Of a DNA stretch of 64,000 bases, positions 6,891-32,680 are shown piece after piece. Where the stretch lies: positions 1 through 64,000 of the forward strand of contig JACRHH010000003.1 of assembly GCA_016212095.1 (NCBI GenBank), read 5' to 3'. How positions within the stretch are numbered: the stretch's first letter is position 1; each line of letters begins with the position of its first letter. The translations under genes were made by a program, and so were the position numbers. The notes beneath the pieces were generated by a model. The model was not told where the DNA came from and ran no database searches. It saw nothing but the letters and a program-made list of their open reading frames with translations. The DNA is from Nitrospirota bacterium. GTDB lineage: Bacteria; Nitrospirota; Thermodesulfovibrionia; SZUA-242.

Positions 6891-7952
6891 ATGAGTGAGA
6901 CAGGCAGGACTTTTGGCGGCAGAATCGGAAAATTCACCAAACTGGCAAGTGACGAGAAGCACGCGCTTCTTATATCATGCATTGTCGGCGCGGTTGTTTA
7001 TGGCATAAACGCTGTATTGCCCCACCCACTTTTTGAGCCCTTGGTTGCCTCGATGCTTGCCGGTCTTATCATTCGGGCCGTTGCGGGCGAGCGCGTCAGG
7101 CTTGGCAACGCCACGGTGGCCGCCTCGACCATTCTTATCCCGCCGGGCATTCTGCTTTACGGAGCGGGCAATCTGAATTTTCTCCATATGCCGGGGGTGT
7201 CTGTTTCAGTCATGCTGATGCTGCTTGTTGTGGCGTCTGTTTTTGTGTGCGTGATCATGGCAGTCGGCAAATTGCTTGGGCAACGAGACAGGATCTCTTA
7301 TCTTACCGCCGCGGGTTCCGCCATATGCGGCGCGTCGGCCATTGCCATAACCGCCCCCGCCGTTGACGCCGATTCCGACGACATTTCCATCTCCCTCATA
7401 GCCATAACGCTGGTGTCGATAATCGGCCTGTACACGTTGTTTCCCCTCGTGGCGATCACGATGGACTTCACCAGCACTGCCTACGCGATCATGTCCGGCT
7501 CCCTCATGCACTTCACCGGCTTCGTTAAGCAGGCCACATCCGACATTCCGCATCTGCGCGGCGACATGACGCAAGCGCAACTAAACTCGCTCGCCCTGTC
7601 GGTCAAGTCGCTTCGCTACACAGGCCTGCTGATTCTCATTCCGCTGTTTTCGAGCCTCGCCCGCAGGCGCGTTCATATTCCGTGGTACTTGTGGGGGTAT
7701 GTTGCGGCGGGAACGATTGCATCGCTTGTGTATTGGGCCGACGCGAAGCTCTACGCGACTTGCCGCTCGTCATGCGTCATTCCGGCATACTCGGTTCTTT
7801 GGTCTATCGCCATGGCAGCCATCGGTCTTGGAACCGACGTCCGACGTCTCCTGAGCGATCATGGCGTTCACGCTTTCGTCATGGCGTTTGCCGGATTTGT
7901 CGCGGCTCTCGCTGTTTTTCTCTTCTGGGCATCAGCGGCGGGGCTTGCCTGA
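6891..7952 (+). CDS. YeiH/UPF0324 family membrane transporter
   Basis: A 353-residue protein with about ten membrane helices. The family signature GSAICGASAIAITAPA lies near residues 140-155 and IGLGTDVRRL near the C-terminus. UPF0324/YeiH members are annotated as putative sulfate or sulfonate export permeases, mostly from family inference rather than biochemistry. The gene follows the hybrid kinase by 73 bases and ends one base before the next kinase, so it may be co-transcribed with the signalling genes. No clear Shine-Dalgarno sequence precedes the ATG. Confidence 0.88.
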   Translation: MSETGRTFGGRIGKFTKLASDEKHALLISCIVGAVVYGINAVLPHPLFEPLVASMLAGLIIRAVAGERVRLGNATVAASTILIPPGILLYGAGNLNFLHMPGVSVSVMLMLLVVASVFVCVIMAVGKLLGQRDRISYLTAAGSAICGASAIAITAPAVDADSDDISISLIAITLVSIIGLYTLFPLVAITMDFTSTAYAIMSGSLMHFTGFVKQATSDIPHLRGDMTQAQLNSLALSVKSLRYTGLLILIPLFSSLARRRVHIPWYLWGYVAAGTIASLVYWADAKLYATCRSSCVIPAYSVLWSIAMAAIGLGTDVRRLLSDHGVHAFVMAFAGFVAALAVFLFWASAAGLA

Positions 7953-26698: not shown

Positions 26699-27499
26699 TC
26701 ATTCCACCCATTTGGCCGGGGGCTGCCTGAGGTAGCGTTCGGCAAACAGCCCGTCCTCAACCCCGATGCCATAATCAGCCTTGATATAAGCCGCCTCGCT
26801 CGAATGACCGCTCTGGAGGTTTTTGATCGATCTTTTCGTAACCGTCGGAAATCCTTTGATATTTTTCACCTCGTCGGCGCTGAATACCTTGAAAAGCTCG
26901 CCCCTTTTGTCGTAATACTCTTCCTTTAGCGGCAATTTTGTCGATTTGTCGATCCACGAAAGCTTGTGTCCGTAATCGGTGTCAGTCCCTTTCGGCGCGC
27001 TTTTTATCACATGGCAGTCTGCCGCGCCGATTCGTTCGTCCTTCACGATGGAGTGATTGTCGTCTTCGATGTCCCTGCCGGAGATGTCCTCATAGGTGAA
27101 ATCCGAGCCGACGAAGCTCGACCGCCTGTCCTGCGCCGCTATTCGGCGCACCATGTTCAGCGCCGGGATGAAGAGCCACCTGTCGTCGTCTTTGCGGGGG
27201 TATTTGTTCACCAGAAATGCCATGCCCTTCACGTCGGCTGGCTGGTGGAAATAGATGAAATATTTCTGGTTGACGCCCGGCTCGCCGAAGTTCTTGCGGA
27301 TCATCGAAAGCTCGCGCACGCGTTCCCGCCCGCCCTTGTCGATAAGCTTCATCATCACGCGGGCCTTGAAGTCCGCGCCGCCGTAGAGAAACGCGGCCTG
27401 CGACTGCTTCATGATCTCGTCGGCGGATGCCGCGAATGCGCGCGCCGGAATTACGATGGACAATAATGCGGCAAGTAAAAACATGGCTGATTGTTTCAT
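26699..27499 (-). CDS. LolA-like outer-membrane lipoprotein-sorting family protein
   Basis: A 266-residue exported protein: signal peptide ending ARAFAA, then a LolA-like convex beta-sheet fold. Typical stretches are DFKARVMMKLIDKGG, YFIYFHQPADVKGMAFLV and RWLFIPALNMVRRI. These PF17131-type proteins often sit beside MMPL/RND transporters and are thought to carry lipid or lipoprotein across the periplasm. It overlaps the stop of the MMPL gene (ATGA), so the two are translationally coupled. The cargo is unknown. Confidence 0.85.
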   Translation of the reverse strand: MKQSAMFLLAALLSIVIPARAFAASADEIMKQSQAAFLYGGADFKARVMMKLIDKGGRERVRELSMIRKNFGEPGVNQKYFIYFHQPADVKGMAFLVNKYPRKDDDRWLFIPALNMVRRIAAQDRRSSFVGSDFTYEDISGRDIEDDNHSIVKDERIGAADCHVIKSAPKGTDTDYGHKLSWIDKSTKLPLKEEYYDKRGELFKVFSADEVKNIKGFPTVTKRSIKNLQSGHSSEAAYIKADYGIGVEDGLFAERYLRQPPAKWVE

Positions 27500-29811
27500 G
27501 CGTTCCTCCCTTTTTCAAGCAAGCTGCCGCTTGCGAGCGTTATAAGCGCCGGAATGTAGACGATTGTCATTACAGCGCTCAGCAGCATCATGCTCACGAT
27601 GAACGCTCCAACCGTAATGTATGGCGTGAGCGGCGCGAATATCATCACCGCAAACGATGCGGCAAACAGAACTGCGTTTCGAATTATCCCCTTGCCGGGG
27701 CGCTCGGCTGTCCAGAGCAGCGCGTCGGATAATGATTCGCCGGGCATTTCCCTCAGGCGCTGCCGTAATCTGCTTACAAAATGAATGGCGAAATCCACCG
27801 CCATGCCAAGCGACAGGCACGACAGCACCGATATCGGCATGTCGAAATCCTTGCCCGCATAGCCCACAACGCCATAGATGAGCAGTATCGTAAACAGAAG
27901 CGGCGTGTAGCCCACAAGCGCCCATTTTACCGAACGGAAGTCCAGCGCAAGAATGGCGAACACGGCGATAAGGGCAAGGCCAAAGCCCATGACCATGTCC
28001 CACAGAACCTCATCGTTCCAGACCAGATTGAAATATGCGATTCCCGCCGGTTTCAGATCGATCCGCATGGGCGATTCATGAGCCGCCGCCTTGTACTCAT
28101 CCATCGCCTTGATAACGTCCCGCATCGCCTGGGCGTCCCAGGTTTTCAACTGCACCCAGATATTTGCGCGCCGGAACGGATAGTCAACCACATTGTCCAG
28201 ATCGGACGGCTTGGCCGACATCGAAAACAGGAATATGTACTGGCCGATCATCTCCTTTGTCTCCGGAACCGCATCGAATTTCGGGTCGTCGTCATGGAGA
28301 ACCCTGTTTATTCTTTTGACATAATCCACGACGGATGTCGTTTTTCCCACAACAGGCAATTTCTCAAGATGCCGCTGAAGCCCCTCGATGTGCCGCATCG
28401 CTTCCGGAGTTTTCATGTATTCATCCTCCGGCGCGGTTGCCACGACATAGGCCATCGACGTGCCGCCAAGCGACCTGTTCATCACCGTGTCGGCAATGCG
28501 CACCTCGTTGCCGGTCTTGAACCACTCCACCAGATTGTTGTTGACCCTTATTTTCGTCAGCCCCACAAGCGCAGCCGCGAAAAGGACAAGGCCGACAACC
28601 AGCGTTGTTTTCGGGTGATACGCGCCGGCTCCCGCAAGCTTCCGGAGAAACCGTGAGGTTCCGCCGGCCCGAATCTCCTGCGCCCTTGCGATCTTCTCAA
28701 TCTTCTCCTCTTTCACGAATGTGAACATCGCCGGTATGAAGCTGAAGCTCAGAATCCTCAGGACAACGGTTCCGAAGGCTACAAGGCCGCCGAACACCTT
28801 AACCGGAATGATGTTCATGAAAAGAAGCACGCCGAAGCCAACGGCGGTTGCAAGGGCGGTGTTCTGCACGGGCCTGCTGACCGCGCGCATCGTTTCGATT
28901 ATCGCTTTCCTCTTGTCTTTCGTCTCGCCGTATCGGAAGTAAAACTCATTGAAGATATGCATGCTGTCCGTGGCTATAGCCATCAGAAACACCGGAGCCA
29001 TCGAACTCATGATATGTATGGGAAAGCCGAGGCCGATCAGCAGGCCCATGCTCCAGACGATGCTTATCATGGCGTCCATCATCAATGTGACTGAGAGAAA
29101 AAGATCCCTGAACATGAAAAATCTGACCGCCAGCATGACCATGCCGGCAATCGGCGCGAAGACCGCCATCAGCTTGAACATCTCGGCGCCGAACGTGTCG
29201 CGCGCAACCGGATCGCCCGCTATGTAGAACTTCTCGCCGCCCTTTTCCTTGCCGACGAGCTCGCGTATGCTGTCGGCAATCTCCTTGCCGTTAGCTCCCT
29301 TTTCGAGCGGAACATAAATGGCGGCGGTCTTTCCGTCCTTCGATATGATGCGATTCAGGAAAAGTGGGTTTTCGAACAGGTTCCGGCGGAGATTTTCGAC
29401 GCCGGCTTGATCTTTCGGGACATCTGCCATGAGTGGCGCTACGTTGAGCGTTCCGTCCTGAACCGTCACGTTGTCAATTGTGGTGAAGCTTGAAACATCT
29501 CTGGCGGCAACGCCGTTTATCCTTAGAATCCCGTCGGTTATCCGCTGGATTCCTCCAAGCGTGTCTTTATTGAGGATGCCGTTTTCGTTGACAATCCCGA
29601 CCGCGATCATGTCTTCGTAGAGGCCGAAGGTCTTTTCAACCCCATCGTTCCAGACCCTGACCGCCGACGTTGCCGGAAGCATGTTCTTTGGGTTGGTGTC
29701 TGTCTTGATCTTCGGAAACTGGGTCATGAAGGCCAGCGAAATGATTATGGCCAGCAGCACGATCAGCTTAGGATGATCAACGGAGAATTCAACCAGCGAA
29801 AACTTTTTCAT
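27496..29811 (-). CDS. MMPL/RND-superfamily transporter
   Basis: A 771-residue protein with two copies of the layout helix - large periplasmic loop - five to six helices (MMPL fold, COG1033-like). The N-terminal helix FSVDHPKLIVLLAIIISLAF is typical, as is the helix region AIATDSMHIFNEFYFRYGE with its intramembrane acidic residue and the corresponding AVDFAIHFVSRLRQR in the second half. Such proteins use proton flow to move hydrophobic molecules, for example hopanoids or other lipids, from the inner membrane. It is the first gene of the set with the LolA-like and beta-barrel genes; the MITE-like element lies just upstream. Confidence 0.93.
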   Translation of the reverse strand: MKKFSLVEFSVDHPKLIVLLAIIISLAFMTQFPKIKTDTNPKNMLPATSAVRVWNDGVEKTFGLYEDMIAVGIVNENGILNKDTLGGIQRITDGILRINGVAARDVSSFTTIDNVTVQDGTLNVAPLMADVPKDQAGVENLRRNLFENPLFLNRIISKDGKTAAIYVPLEKGANGKEIADSIRELVGKEKGGEKFYIAGDPVARDTFGAEMFKLMAVFAPIAGMVMLAVRFFMFRDLFLSVTLMMDAMISIVWSMGLLIGLGFPIHIMSSMAPVFLMAIATDSMHIFNEFYFRYGETKDKRKAIIETMRAVSRPVQNTALATAVGFGVLLFMNIIPVKVFGGLVAFGTVVLRILSFSFIPAMFTFVKEEKIEKIARAQEIRAGGTSRFLRKLAGAGAYHPKTTLVVGLVLFAAALVGLTKIRVNNNLVEWFKTGNEVRIADTVMNRSLGGTSMAYVVATAPEDEYMKTPEAMRHIEGLQRHLEKLPVVGKTTSVVDYVKRINRVLHDDDPKFDAVPETKEMIGQYIFLFSMSAKPSDLDNVVDYPFRRANIWVQLKTWDAQAMRDVIKAMDEYKAAAHESPMRIDLKPAGIAYFNLVWNDEVLWDMVMGFGLALIAVFAILALDFRSVKWALVGYTPLLFTILLIYGVVGYAGKDFDMPISVLSCLSLGMAVDFAIHFVSRLRQRLREMPGESLSDALLWTAERPGKGIIRNAVLFAASFAVMIFAPLTPYITVGAFIVSMMLLSAVMTIVYIPALITLASGSLLEKGRNA

Positions 29812-29994: not shown

Positions 29995-30417
29995 TCAGAA
30001 TGTAAGGTTCATGTCTGCCTGAACCACAACTTCCTTGTAATAAGTGGCCGGATTGGCAAGTTCCACGCCCTCGACGAAATCCGCTTTGGACATGCCGAAA
30101 AGCGGAACGTTGAGCGGACAGGCCAGCATCCTTGCTCCCTCCATGTGAGCCATGAAAAGCAGTTCCTCGACAGTTGGAAGCTCCATCTCCTCCATCCGCT
30201 TCATCACGGCGTCGGAAACCTCCTGTGGCTGGTCTGGAAGGCATTTAAGATCCTTCACCTTGTCTTTGTGGATTGCGTTAACCCCCCTTGATCCGAAGAA
30301 AATCGTCACCTTCGAGTCTTCCCTGAGCAGGCTTAACGCCGTCATTAGCGCGTTGTAAACCTGGCAAAGCTCATCGTGAAAACACATCACCGACACGTTT
30401 TTCGTTATCTTCGCCAT
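29995..30417 (-). CDS. DsrE/DsrF-family (peroxiredoxin-like) sulfur protein
   Basis: A 140-residue protein of the DsrE fold. Cysteines at 12 and 18 lie near the N-terminus (VMCFHDELCQ) and one lies in RMLACPLNVPLFGM, the loop where DsrE2-type proteins place their sulfur-binding cysteine. Such proteins carry persulfide sulfur. It is the last gene of the sulfur operon, 38 bases after the oxidoreductase. The ATG at 30417 has an AAAGGGG site 7 bases upstream. Confidence 0.8.
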   Translation of the reverse strand: MAKITKNVSVMCFHDELCQVYNALMTALSLLREDSKVTIFFGSRGVNAIHKDKVKDLKCLPDQPQEVSDAVMKRMEEMELPTVEELLFMAHMEGARMLACPLNVPLFGMSKADFVEGVELANPATYYKEVVVQADMNLTF

Positions 30418-30455: not shown

Positions 30456-31643
30456 CTACGGCCAGTTGCTTAATCCATGCCTGATTTTGAATAGAAAATA
30501 CTTTTCGAAGGCGATTTTGGCCCATTTGTATCGCACGCCAGCCTCTATCATCGATTCCTGCCGGGGCGGAAGCACCGGGTACGCCTTCATGATTGCGGCC
30601 TTGTCGCCCATGTCCATGAGGCAGAGCACATCGAGCGGTTTTTCCTGCGGCGGCGGGCCGCCAAGAATATCCGATGCGATGGTCAGCGCGGCGGTTTTGG
30701 CCATGCTCACTGTCATGTATCCGGTTTTTGGCACGCCGGTTGGAACCGGAGTTGGCTCCGGCGGCGCTATGGCCACGGCCACGCCCACGGCGAATATGTT
30801 GCGGTGCTTTGTATGCCTGTATCGTCCGTCAACCGGAATGAAGCCGCGCGGATTGCCCAGATGCGACACAGCCGGAACGCCCTTCATTGCGGGCGCAAGC
30901 ATCGAGAGCTTGAACGGGAGCTTCGTTCCGTCCTTCAGAATCACCTCGCCGGGCGCAATTTCGGCAACCGCCGTATTGGCTATAACCTTTATGTCGCGCT
31001 TTGCGAACTCGTCTTCCATCATTGTTTTCGAGTTCCGCAGGCCGCCGATGCCGAAATGGCCGACATAAGGCTCGGAGGTGATGAAAACTATCGGAGCCTT
31101 GTGGCGGATTTTCCGGTGGCGAAGCTCGGTGTCGATCTCGAAGGCGTATTCGTATGTCGGGCCGGAACAGCTTACGCCCTGCACCGAGCCGATTACGGCT
31201 GTGCCGGGACTTTCCAGAAACCTGTTCCACGAGGCGTTTGTCTTTTCCGCCTGCCCCAGAGTGAAGATGCAGTCTGTGTTGCCGCCATCGGGGCCAAGGC
31301 CCGGCACTTCCTCGAAGGCCAGATGCGGGCCGGATGCGATCACGAGATAATCGTATGCAATCTCGCTCTTTTCTGTGACAACCTTCGATGCGTCTGCGTC
31401 AACGCCGGTTGCCTTCTCATTAATAAATGCGATCTTGTTGCTTTCGAGAATAGGGCGAAGCGGAACAGTTATGTCCGCCGCGCGGCGAATGCCCATCGCC
31501 AGCCAGGGAAGCGACGGGATGAAGACGAATTTATCGTCATCGGATATTACGGTTACATCGGCTTTCTTTCCAAGAAGTCTTTTCAGCTCGAATGCGGCGG
31601 TGAGTCCTCCGAAGGAACCGCCGATCACTGCGATTTTAGCCAC
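30456..31643 (-). CDS. sqr: Sulfide:quinone oxidoreductase
   Basis: A 395-residue FAD enzyme of the SQR family. The dinucleotide-binding motif IAVIGGSFGGLTAA begins the protein. Three cysteines at about residues 125 (NTDCIF), 159 (GVSCSG) and 341 (VLCLMD) match the redox and trisulfide cysteines of type I SQR (near 128, 160 and 356). The C-terminal region ends in basic, aromatic helices that fit membrane binding. It would oxidise sulfide to polysulfide and reduce quinone. It starts at a GTG with a CGGGGAGG site, 19 bases after the DsrH-like gene. The role is well supported; activity is inferred. Confidence 0.88.
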   Translation of the reverse strand: MAKIAVIGGSFGGLTAAFELKRLLGKKADVTVISDDDKFVFIPSLPWLAMGIRRAADITVPLRPILESNKIAFINEKATGVDADASKVVTEKSEIAYDYLVIASGPHLAFEEVPGLGPDGGNTDCIFTLGQAEKTNASWNRFLESPGTAVIGSVQGVSCSGPTYEYAFEIDTELRHRKIRHKAPIVFITSEPYVGHFGIGGLRNSKTMMEDEFAKRDIKVIANTAVAEIAPGEVILKDGTKLPFKLSMLAPAMKGVPAVSHLGNPRGFIPVDGRYRHTKHRNIFAVGVAVAIAPPEPTPVPTGVPKTGYMTVSMAKTAALTIASDILGGPPPQEKPLDVLCLMDMGDKAAIMKAYPVLPPRQESMIEAGVRYKWAKIAFEKYFLFKIRHGLSNWP

Positions 31644-31664: not shown

Positions 31665-31946
31665 TCAGAACATCCCGACAACCTTGTCGTTTTCAGTCAT
31701 TATATCCACCAGTCCGTCGTAGTCGATGCCTTGAATGCGGCTGCCCGCCATTGCCGAGTCGATTCCCCGCAGCTTCACATCGTCTTCCAGCGCGTATATC
31801 CTGCCGGAAAATTCCCCAATCGCGTTCCCGTCGGCGAAATACACGCCGTTCTGAAGCAGAACCACGTCAGCCGCAGCCTCGCGGGCAAGCATCATTCCAC
31901 GCATTCCGTCAGTCGTATCGGGCGCGCTTTTAACAAGTACAAGCAT
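31665..31946 (-). CDS. DsrH/TusB-like sulfur relay subunit
   Basis: A 93-residue protein with the DsrH/TusB pattern: start MLVLVKSAP, central strand VVLLQNGVYFA, strand RIYALEDDVKLRGI, end YDGLVDIMTENDKVV. It has no cysteine, so like E. coli TusB it would be structural rather than a sulfur carrier, unlike A. vinosum DsrH with Cys20. It follows the DsrF-like gene by 9 bases, with its AGGAGG site overlapping that gene's stop. In TusBCD and DsrEFH the three subunits form a hexamer. Confidence 0.82.
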   Translation of the reverse strand: MLVLVKSAPDTTDGMRGMMLAREAAADVVLLQNGVYFADGNAIGEFSGRIYALEDDVKLRGIDSAMAGSRIQGIDYDGLVDIMTENDKVVGMF

Positions 31947-31955
31947 ATCGGCCTC

Positions 31956-32306
31956 CTAAAAGATCATCGTTTGGCCGGCTTGCCCGATCAGCGCGGCAAT
32001 TTCGGGCCATCCGGTTATTTTCACGCCCGACGCCACGCAGTCCGGCGCAACATGGCGCTTTGCCAGCGATTCGCTGTCGGCGTAAACATTCACCCCAAGC
32101 TCAACCGCATCGCCAATGGCGTTTTCGAGATTCATGAAGCCGTCAGTGTCCTGCTGGCCTTTTCTTGCCAGAAAAACCCCGCCGTCAAGAAGAATGAGGT
32201 TCACGCCGATTTCATCCGACGCCGCGCCCATTGCGTGGCGCACCGCTTCAGCCGCGTTTATGTCGCCATACGGCGGCTTCCGCACAATCATTGCTATTGT
32301 TTTCAT
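31956..32306 (-). CDS. DsrF/TusC-like sulfur relay subunit
   Basis: A 116-residue protein with the DsrE/DsrF fold (TIAMIVRKPPYGDINAAEAV, then NLILLDGGVFLARKG and ELGVNVYADSESLAKRHV). The middle gene of the DsrEFH-like set. A GGAGG site lies 8 bases before the ATG at 32306; the frame upstream is not needed. DsrF/TusC subunits hold the complex together and normally lack the sulfur-binding cysteine; the one cysteine here is near residue 86. Confidence 0.82.
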   Translation of the reverse strand: MKTIAMIVRKPPYGDINAAEAVRHAMGAASDEIGVNLILLDGGVFLARKGQQDTDGFMNLENAIGDAVELGVNVYADSESLAKRHVAPDCVASGVKITGWPEIAALIGQAGQTMIF

Positions 32307-32323: not shown

Positions 32324-32680
32324 TCACGCGCCGATATTCAGCCAAACGTCGCTTTCACCCATGGTTTTAAAAAGTCCCTTGAGCGAGCCAACTTCCGAAC
32401 CGTCAATAAAGTCGTCTTTCGCCGCCCGGCGAAAGTTCATGCAGCCGCCTCAGAGATAGACGCGCAAGCCTTTTTGCATCAGCCCGGCGAATTCCTCCTC
32501 CGCGTTGGTTATCCCCTTCGCCTTCTGTTTCTTGAGGAAACCATACACCCCGTCGGCTGACGCGATCAGGTTAACAGTGTGTCCTTTTCTCAGCGCCGAT
32601 TCCGCTATTCGAACAGTGGAGAGTGTGTTCTCGCCAGAGTAAGGCGATGTGGACAGATAGAGAGTCAGTGTCTTGGCCAT
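32324..32680 (-). CDS. DsrE/TusD-like selenoprotein (UGA = Sec77)
   Basis: Read normally, this frame stops at TGA 32450-32452 after 76 residues, just before the place where DsrE/TusD has its sulfur-binding cysteine (Cys78 in E. coli TusD and A. vinosum DsrE). Reading the TGA as selenocysteine gives VYL-U-GGCMNFRRAAK, continues with the conserved tail (GSLKGLFKTMGESDVWLNIG) and stops at TGA 32324-32326, total 118 residues. A perfect hairpin follows the UGA. The first half is clearly DsrE-like (TLTLYLSTSPYSGENTLSTV). An AAAGGAGA site lies 6 bases before the ATG. It heads the operon and probably passes sulfur through a Sec-sulfur bond. DsrE-like selenoproteins are known from metagenomic selenoproteome surveys. 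Confidence 0.88.
32416..32452 (-). promoter_or_regulatory. SECIS-like hairpin and UGA in the DsrE-like selenoprotein
   Basis: On the minus strand UGA (32452-32450) is followed after 14 bases by a perfect 8-bp stem ctttcgcc / ggcgaaag with a gggc loop. Position, stem length and a loop beginning with G match the bacterial SECIS, which must lie directly after the UGA inside the coding region. Confidence 0.82.

Follow-up and report, generated by a model that had tools for sequence, protein, structure and literature searches.

A selenocysteine UGA codon in a DsrE-family gene conserved within a DsrEFH/SQR-type operon of Thermodesulfovibrionia

DsrEFH serves as a genomic marker for sulfur oxidation. 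In the stretch of Nitrospirota DNA analyzed here (64,000 nucleotides of contig JACRHH010000003.1, hereafter the window), a gene of the DsrE family is interrupted by an in-frame TGA where the sulfur-binding cysteine of its relatives would be expected. The locus thus raises two questions: whether this codon is read as selenocysteine (Sec), and what a Sec residue at this position could do. An earlier note based on the window's letters had proposed a DsrE/TusD-like sulfur carrier that is a selenoprotein. The interval that it gave holds, and the gene, for which the note named no strand, lies on the minus strand; a plus-strand reading of the same interval was rejected, as its product is not a DsrE protein. 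Translation of the minus-strand frame from 32680 to 32324 yields MAKTLTLYLSTSPYSGENTLS...GLRVYL-U-GGCMNFRRAAKDDFIDGSEVGSLKGLFKTMGESDVWLNIGA-stop, with the TGA at codon 77, as had been described. The features of the locus are listed in Table 1.

Table 1. Positions of the Sec-dsrE gene, its recoding elements and the genes of its operon in the window
Feature	Position	Strand	Remarks
DsrE-family selenoprotein gene (Sec-dsrE)	32324..32680	−	118 aa, Sec is residue 77; own stop TGA 32324-32326
In-frame UGA, Sec codon 77	32450..32452	−	Motif VYL-U-GGC, UxxC; UGA in the window and in homologues
SECIS-like hairpin	32416..32435	−	8-bp stem CUUUCGCC/GGCGAAAG, loop GGGC, first stem base 15 nt after UGA
DsrF-like subunit	31956..32306	−	Pfam DsrE 54.7 bits; TIGR03010 TusC/DsrF under cut-off; no invariant Cys
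DsrH-like subunit	31665..31946	−	Pfam DsrH; TIGR03011 48.6 versus cut-off 49.2; window copy without Cys
SQR-like FAD/NAD(P) flavoprotein	30456..31643	−	Pyr_redox_2; best NCBIfam match is type III SQR, under cut-off
DsrE2-like protein	29995..30417	−	DrsE_2 family, has Cys
MMPL/RND-type membrane transporter	27496..29811	−	Conserved downstream gene of the cassette
266-aa protein after the MMPL gene	26699..27499	−	Recurrent in the cassette; no NCBIfam match

Read through the TGA, the protein matches the Pfam DsrE family (PF02635) with 55.8 bits over residues 6 to 114, a span that includes the TGA (gathering cut-off, 22.7), and the 76-aa fragment before the UGA still exceeds the cut-off with 31.9 bits. 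This match and the conservation of the region in homologues confirm that the continued frame encodes a conserved DsrE tail. General reassignment of UGA was rejected because the same gene uses TGA at its natural end; the natural ends of relatives are TAA, TAG, or TGA.

Homologues were collected in two ways. Among 150 genomes of the class, a close homologue (down to an E value of about 1e-14) was found in 69 by our own count, the window's genome included, and the TGA is present in all of them. When ~50 of the homologues, drawn from many families within the class, were translated, each had the TGA at the same codon. They form three sequence subfamilies with the motifs VYLUGGC, VDLUGGC, and VDIUTGC (UGGC twice and UTGC once), plus a few variants, and Cys80 is invariant along with U77. 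Apparent non-TGA stops in relatives G003, G006, and G012 were considered and rejected: in G006 (locus L029, the one that was read), the TAG is the natural stop, one residue earlier. A second, species-level scan with one genome per species gave 64 loci, 63 of which come from Nitrospirota-type assemblies, assigned to Thermodesulfovibrionia wherever their class is stated; a few carry other names, e.g., Deferribacteres or “uncultured bacterium.” UGA is found in the motif at 56 of the 64 loci by pattern and at five more by translation (L125, L139, L140, L141, and L143). L138 also has the UGA, followed by a one-base frameshift, which accounts for its nonhomologous appearance after this codon. L144, from an archaeon (27% identity), was rejected as an orthologue and is a distant DsrE.

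The sole true homologue with cysteine in the scan is L142 (VEL-C-GTC, codon TGC; L142:1552-1908), from a groundwater Nitrospirae assembly in which selA is also present. An ordinary stop followed by unconserved sequence, which the earlier note had named as evidence against recoding, is not what the homologues contain: the UGA (once Cys) is kept and the tail is conserved. The ratio pN/pS is 0.191 before the UGA and 0.181 after it, i.e., both parts are constrained equally strongly, and it rises to 1.38 when the frame is shifted. The first 11 codons after the UGA, which hold the hairpin, also show fewer synonymous changes (pS of 0.48 versus about 0.78).

The perfect 8-bp hairpin reported to start after 14 intervening bases is indeed present. 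Taken by itself, its folding energy is unremarkable (z of −0.35 to −0.84), and we rejected the folding energy of a single hairpin as uninformative. A perfect 8-bp stem at a SECIS-like distance follows 11 of the 2077 TGA triplets of the window, so the hairpin of a single window is suggestive only. The comparison of homologues is more telling. Among all 7-bp stems tested in 69 homologues, the stem at +15 and its partner pair best, in 90% of cells. For 58 distinct sequences, in-register pairing reaches 86.9% of cells compared to 46 to 56% in slid controls, and compensatory changes on both sides (UA to CG and CG to UA) occur in 20 cells compared to 2 to 16. A shuffle control was mixed: the covariation score and the number of both-side cells exceed all 500 shuffles, but the counts of pairs and of pair types do not. 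The loop begins with G in 68 of 69 homologues and continues with U in 63, and a hairpin with a G-U loop is found at equal distance from the UGA in each subfamily.

The genome also encodes the machinery for Sec incorporation. The genes selA, selB, and selC, whose absence would have counted against recoding according to the earlier note, are all present; SelB (634 aa) has its winged-helix domains, and the anticodon of tRNA-Sec is UCA. Since nearly all genomes of the class (139 of 150) have selA, its presence discriminates little, and a contrast of Cys and Sec forms with selA as predictor was dropped for the same reason. G042 and G116 carry the UGA gene, but selA was not found in either genome, perhaps because the assemblies are incomplete. 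Overall, these results indicate that the UGA at codon 77 is almost certainly read as selenocysteine. The observation made in the earlier note was correct, and its main inference is supported as far as sequence can tell.

To what, then, does Sec77 correspond? In profile alignments, U77 falls on Cys78 of Allochromatium vinosum DsrE (2hy5_A, “VVCVAAAQRRG”) and of TusD (2d1p_A, “NICVAAALRRG”), in agreement with the column originally proposed. It also aligns with the first cysteine of the CKTC motif of YchN, and two cysteine paralogues in the same genome (contigs 38 and 11) have CxxC at this column. An AlphaFold model of the Sec-DsrE monomer (mean pLDDT, 82.5) was compared with known structures by Foldseek; YchN was the closest match (TM score, 0.84), followed by DsrEFH (0.82 to 0.83; chain A, 0.83) and TusD (0.82). 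Assignment to the DsrE family therefore stands, but the label TusD-like is too loose, as the read-through protein scores 16.6 bits against the TIGR03012 TusD/DsrE equivalog (cut-off, 89.25) and its closest structure is YchN. Because it lies under this cut-off, the protein is to be regarded as DsrE-like and not as a proven orthologue.

Sec-dsrE is the first gene of an operon in which it is followed by genes for DsrF-like and DsrH-like proteins, an SQR-like flavoprotein, a DsrE2-like protein, an MMPL transporter, and a 266-aa protein. The E-F-H order on one strand is kept at 62 of 63 loci, and the SQR-like gene comes next at 50 of the 56 loci with room for it. Both genes adjacent to Sec-dsrE are recognized at the Pfam level; the TIGR03010 cut-off is not reached and that of TIGR03011 is just missed. 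Since neither DsrF nor DsrH of the cassette has an invariant cysteine, Sec77 and Cys80 are the sole invariant chalcogen residues of the trio. The window cassette has no tusA or yeeE, for which the matches in this genome lie on other contigs, and no selD or other sel gene adjoins the Sec-dsrE operon. The genome also has dsrA. A search for DsrD gave no match in the genome or in the controls and is thus uninformative.

The locus as a whole is best explained by a probable DsrEFH-like sulfurtransferase in which Sec-DsrE is the subunit that bears the chalcogen. The hairpin, 15 to 34 nt downstream, would direct SelB and Sec-tRNA(UCA) to the UGA, giving a 118-residue selenoprotein of DsrE fold with a UGGC motif. 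This protein would join the adjacent DsrF-like and DsrH-like proteins in the sulfurtransferase complex, and the SQR-like flavoprotein may make or feed sulfane sulfur. Sec77, which stands where A. vinosum DsrE has Cys78, would hold the sulfane sulfur as a selenopersulfide (Se-S) and hand it to a downstream carrier, e.g., TusA or DsrC, the direction and partners being the presumed ones. Cys80 could resolve the adduct as an Se-S bond or take the sulfur over. Sulfur transfer through a Sec-bound intermediate, which the earlier note had suggested, is likewise what we infer here. The chemistry of Sec-DsrE could differ from that of DsrE and TusD since both lack the invariant second cysteine of UxxC.

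This cysteine is also the basis of the strongest rival, in which the protein is a redox enzyme whose Sec77-Cys80 selenenylsulfide reduces persulfides, polysulfides, or disulfides and takes no part in a sulfur relay. The invariance of Cys80 with U77 fits such a reductase, as does the CxxC of YchN, the closest solved relative by both sequence and fold, which sets it apart from DsrE and TusD; reviews, too, give the motif of DsrE-like selenoproteins as UxxC. Nevertheless, we consider this reading unlikely: the gene keeps a fixed place beside DsrF-like and DsrH-like genes in its operon, and this is the composition of known sulfur-relay heterohexamers.

One relative, L135, has a YeeE gene after DsrH. 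This gene (L135:6062-7261) encodes a YeeE/YedE-type sulfur transporter (PF04143), adjoins the Sec-DsrEFH cassette, and itself contains an in-frame UGA (TGA at 7001, “ITGGUAVGIIG”) followed by a short hairpin whose loop begins with G; it is probably a second selenoprotein of the cassette. A transporter of this kind would suit a protein that handles selenium, delivering selenide or selenotrisulfide to SelD, as has been proposed for YedF, which is linked with selenium metabolism (PMC5322559) and whose C-terminal DsrE-like domain has CGxC by comparison. Such a role is less probable still than the redox one, as the partners are SQR-like, DsrF, DsrH, DsrE2-like, and MMPL proteins, no selD or sel gene is nearby, and the carrier would itself require Sec for its own synthesis.

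Two readings without Sec deserve hardly any credence. A second match to the tRNA-Sec model (C5:13412-13509, i.e., L165:4413-4510; 50.6 bits, above gathering), not found by ARAGORN, has the anticodon loop CUGCAAA, which reads GCA, i.e., Cys, and belongs to the selC* tRNA-Cys type that has been described in Nitrospirae; in other organisms, the anticodon of some selC* tRNAs is UCA (PMC7609411), which would allow the UGA to be decoded as cysteine, giving an ordinary Cys-DsrE, but the GCA anticodon here does not read UGA, and a standard UCA tRNA-Sec, selA, and selB are present. A real stop (due to a pseudogene or a sequencing error, or ending a 76-residue product that is itself functional) would fit the Pfam score of the fragment, but it is hard to reconcile with a UGA and tail conserved across independent genomes under purifying selection after the codon.

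With the UGA read as Sec and the sulfurtransferase reading preferred, the locus can be compared with known systems. As the earlier note pointed out, DsrE-like selenoproteins appear in selenoproteome surveys: UxxC forms were described from the Sargasso Sea in 2005 (PMC1088965) and from Desulfovibrio vulgaris in 2006 (PMC1794560), and a 2026 review (PMC13188914) lists them and, in the part concerned, calls the functions of such proteins largely uncharacterized. The kind of protein is thus known since 2005. Where these surveys deal with DsrE-like proteins, they share with the window gene the DsrE Pfam family (PF02635), Sec in UxxC, and a bacterial SECIS-like hairpin; the same passages give one or two sequences and no DsrFH/SQR operon, in contrast to the conserved operon seen here. 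The D. vulgaris protein is not among the matches of the species-level scan.

DsrEFH type I of A. vinosum (2hy5) and TusBCD of Escherichia coli (2d1p) have the same fold, the three-subunit set, and the Cys78 column. The window proteins differ by Sec in place of Cys, the additional Cys80, scores under the TIGR03012, TIGR03010, and TIGR03011 cut-offs, a DsrH without cysteine, and an operon with SQR-like, DsrE2-like, and MMPL genes that does not lie beside dsrAB. E. coli YchN (1jx7), the best match in both sequence and fold, has CxxC at the columns of UxxC, with Cys where the window protein has Sec; its gene is not known to lie in a DsrEFH operon. DsrEFH type II, described in 2026 from cable bacteria and others, carries a functional Cys67 (99.3% of sequences) and is accompanied by tusA and yeeE; it was searched for among called proteins, with all three subunits required and each above 80 bits (PMC13293266). 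A DsrH without Cys20 has been reported for the cable-bacterial complex (PMC13047784). Like type II, the window trio is a divergent DsrEFH in an organism of the dsrAB kind (here, dsrA) in which DsrE bears the active residue. Unlike type II, with its Cys67, the trio has Sec, and a Cys-type DsrEFH-like set lies separately on contig 38 (C38:85200-86600, i.e., L159:6204-7575), with DsrH, a DsrE with CEAC, a DsrE-family F, and TusA.

That the Sec form is fixed throughout Thermodesulfovibrionia as part of a DsrEFH/SQR operon, with Cys only rarely in its place, appears to be undescribed: no report of it was found in the literature searched, nor any relevant paper on selenoproteins in Nitrospirota or Thermodesulfovibrio. 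Ordinary gene callers cut Sec-DsrE to 76 residues, just before the active site, so a survey that starts from such predictions can overlook the complex or assess it wrongly. According to a 2024 survey, most Thermodesulfovibrionia have “dsrFH, but no dsrE” (PMC11033732), and the Sec gene may be the dsrE reported missing. Both divergence and truncation may have hidden it, since the read-through protein and the Cys homologue L142 (34.1 bits, also below 89.25) fail TIGR03012 and the stump passes Pfam. We tentatively suggest, with somewhat less than even confidence, that a Sec-dependent DsrEFH is the main or a main form of sulfur relay across Thermodesulfovibrionia, with a selenopersulfide replacing the cysteine persulfide, that it supplies the missing dsrE, and that sulfur oxidation or disproportionation is tied to selenium supply, the neighboring YeeE transporter of at least one relative probably being a selenoprotein too. 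If so, the capacity of these organisms for either process would depend on selenium. Dozens of relatives, most of them uncultured bacteria of the sulfur cycle, also have Sec-DsrE, whose gene can go unnoticed as its Sec codon resembles a stop, and the window gene and L142 offer a natural Sec/Cys pair for asking what selenium contributes to persulfide transfer.

Two further observations concern the relatives. In several of them, an ArsR-family regulator lies directly before Sec-dsrE (Pfam matches at L135:4654-5001 and L060:4404-4946; a rough motif count suggests 41 of 58). This regulator, of which the window showed no copy, is possibly a sulfane-sulfur sensor. L139, L140, L141, and L143 form a Sec-DsrE subgroup with an insert of ~25 residues, rich in Gly and Cys (GGCADG.CSIE...), after the UxxC region.
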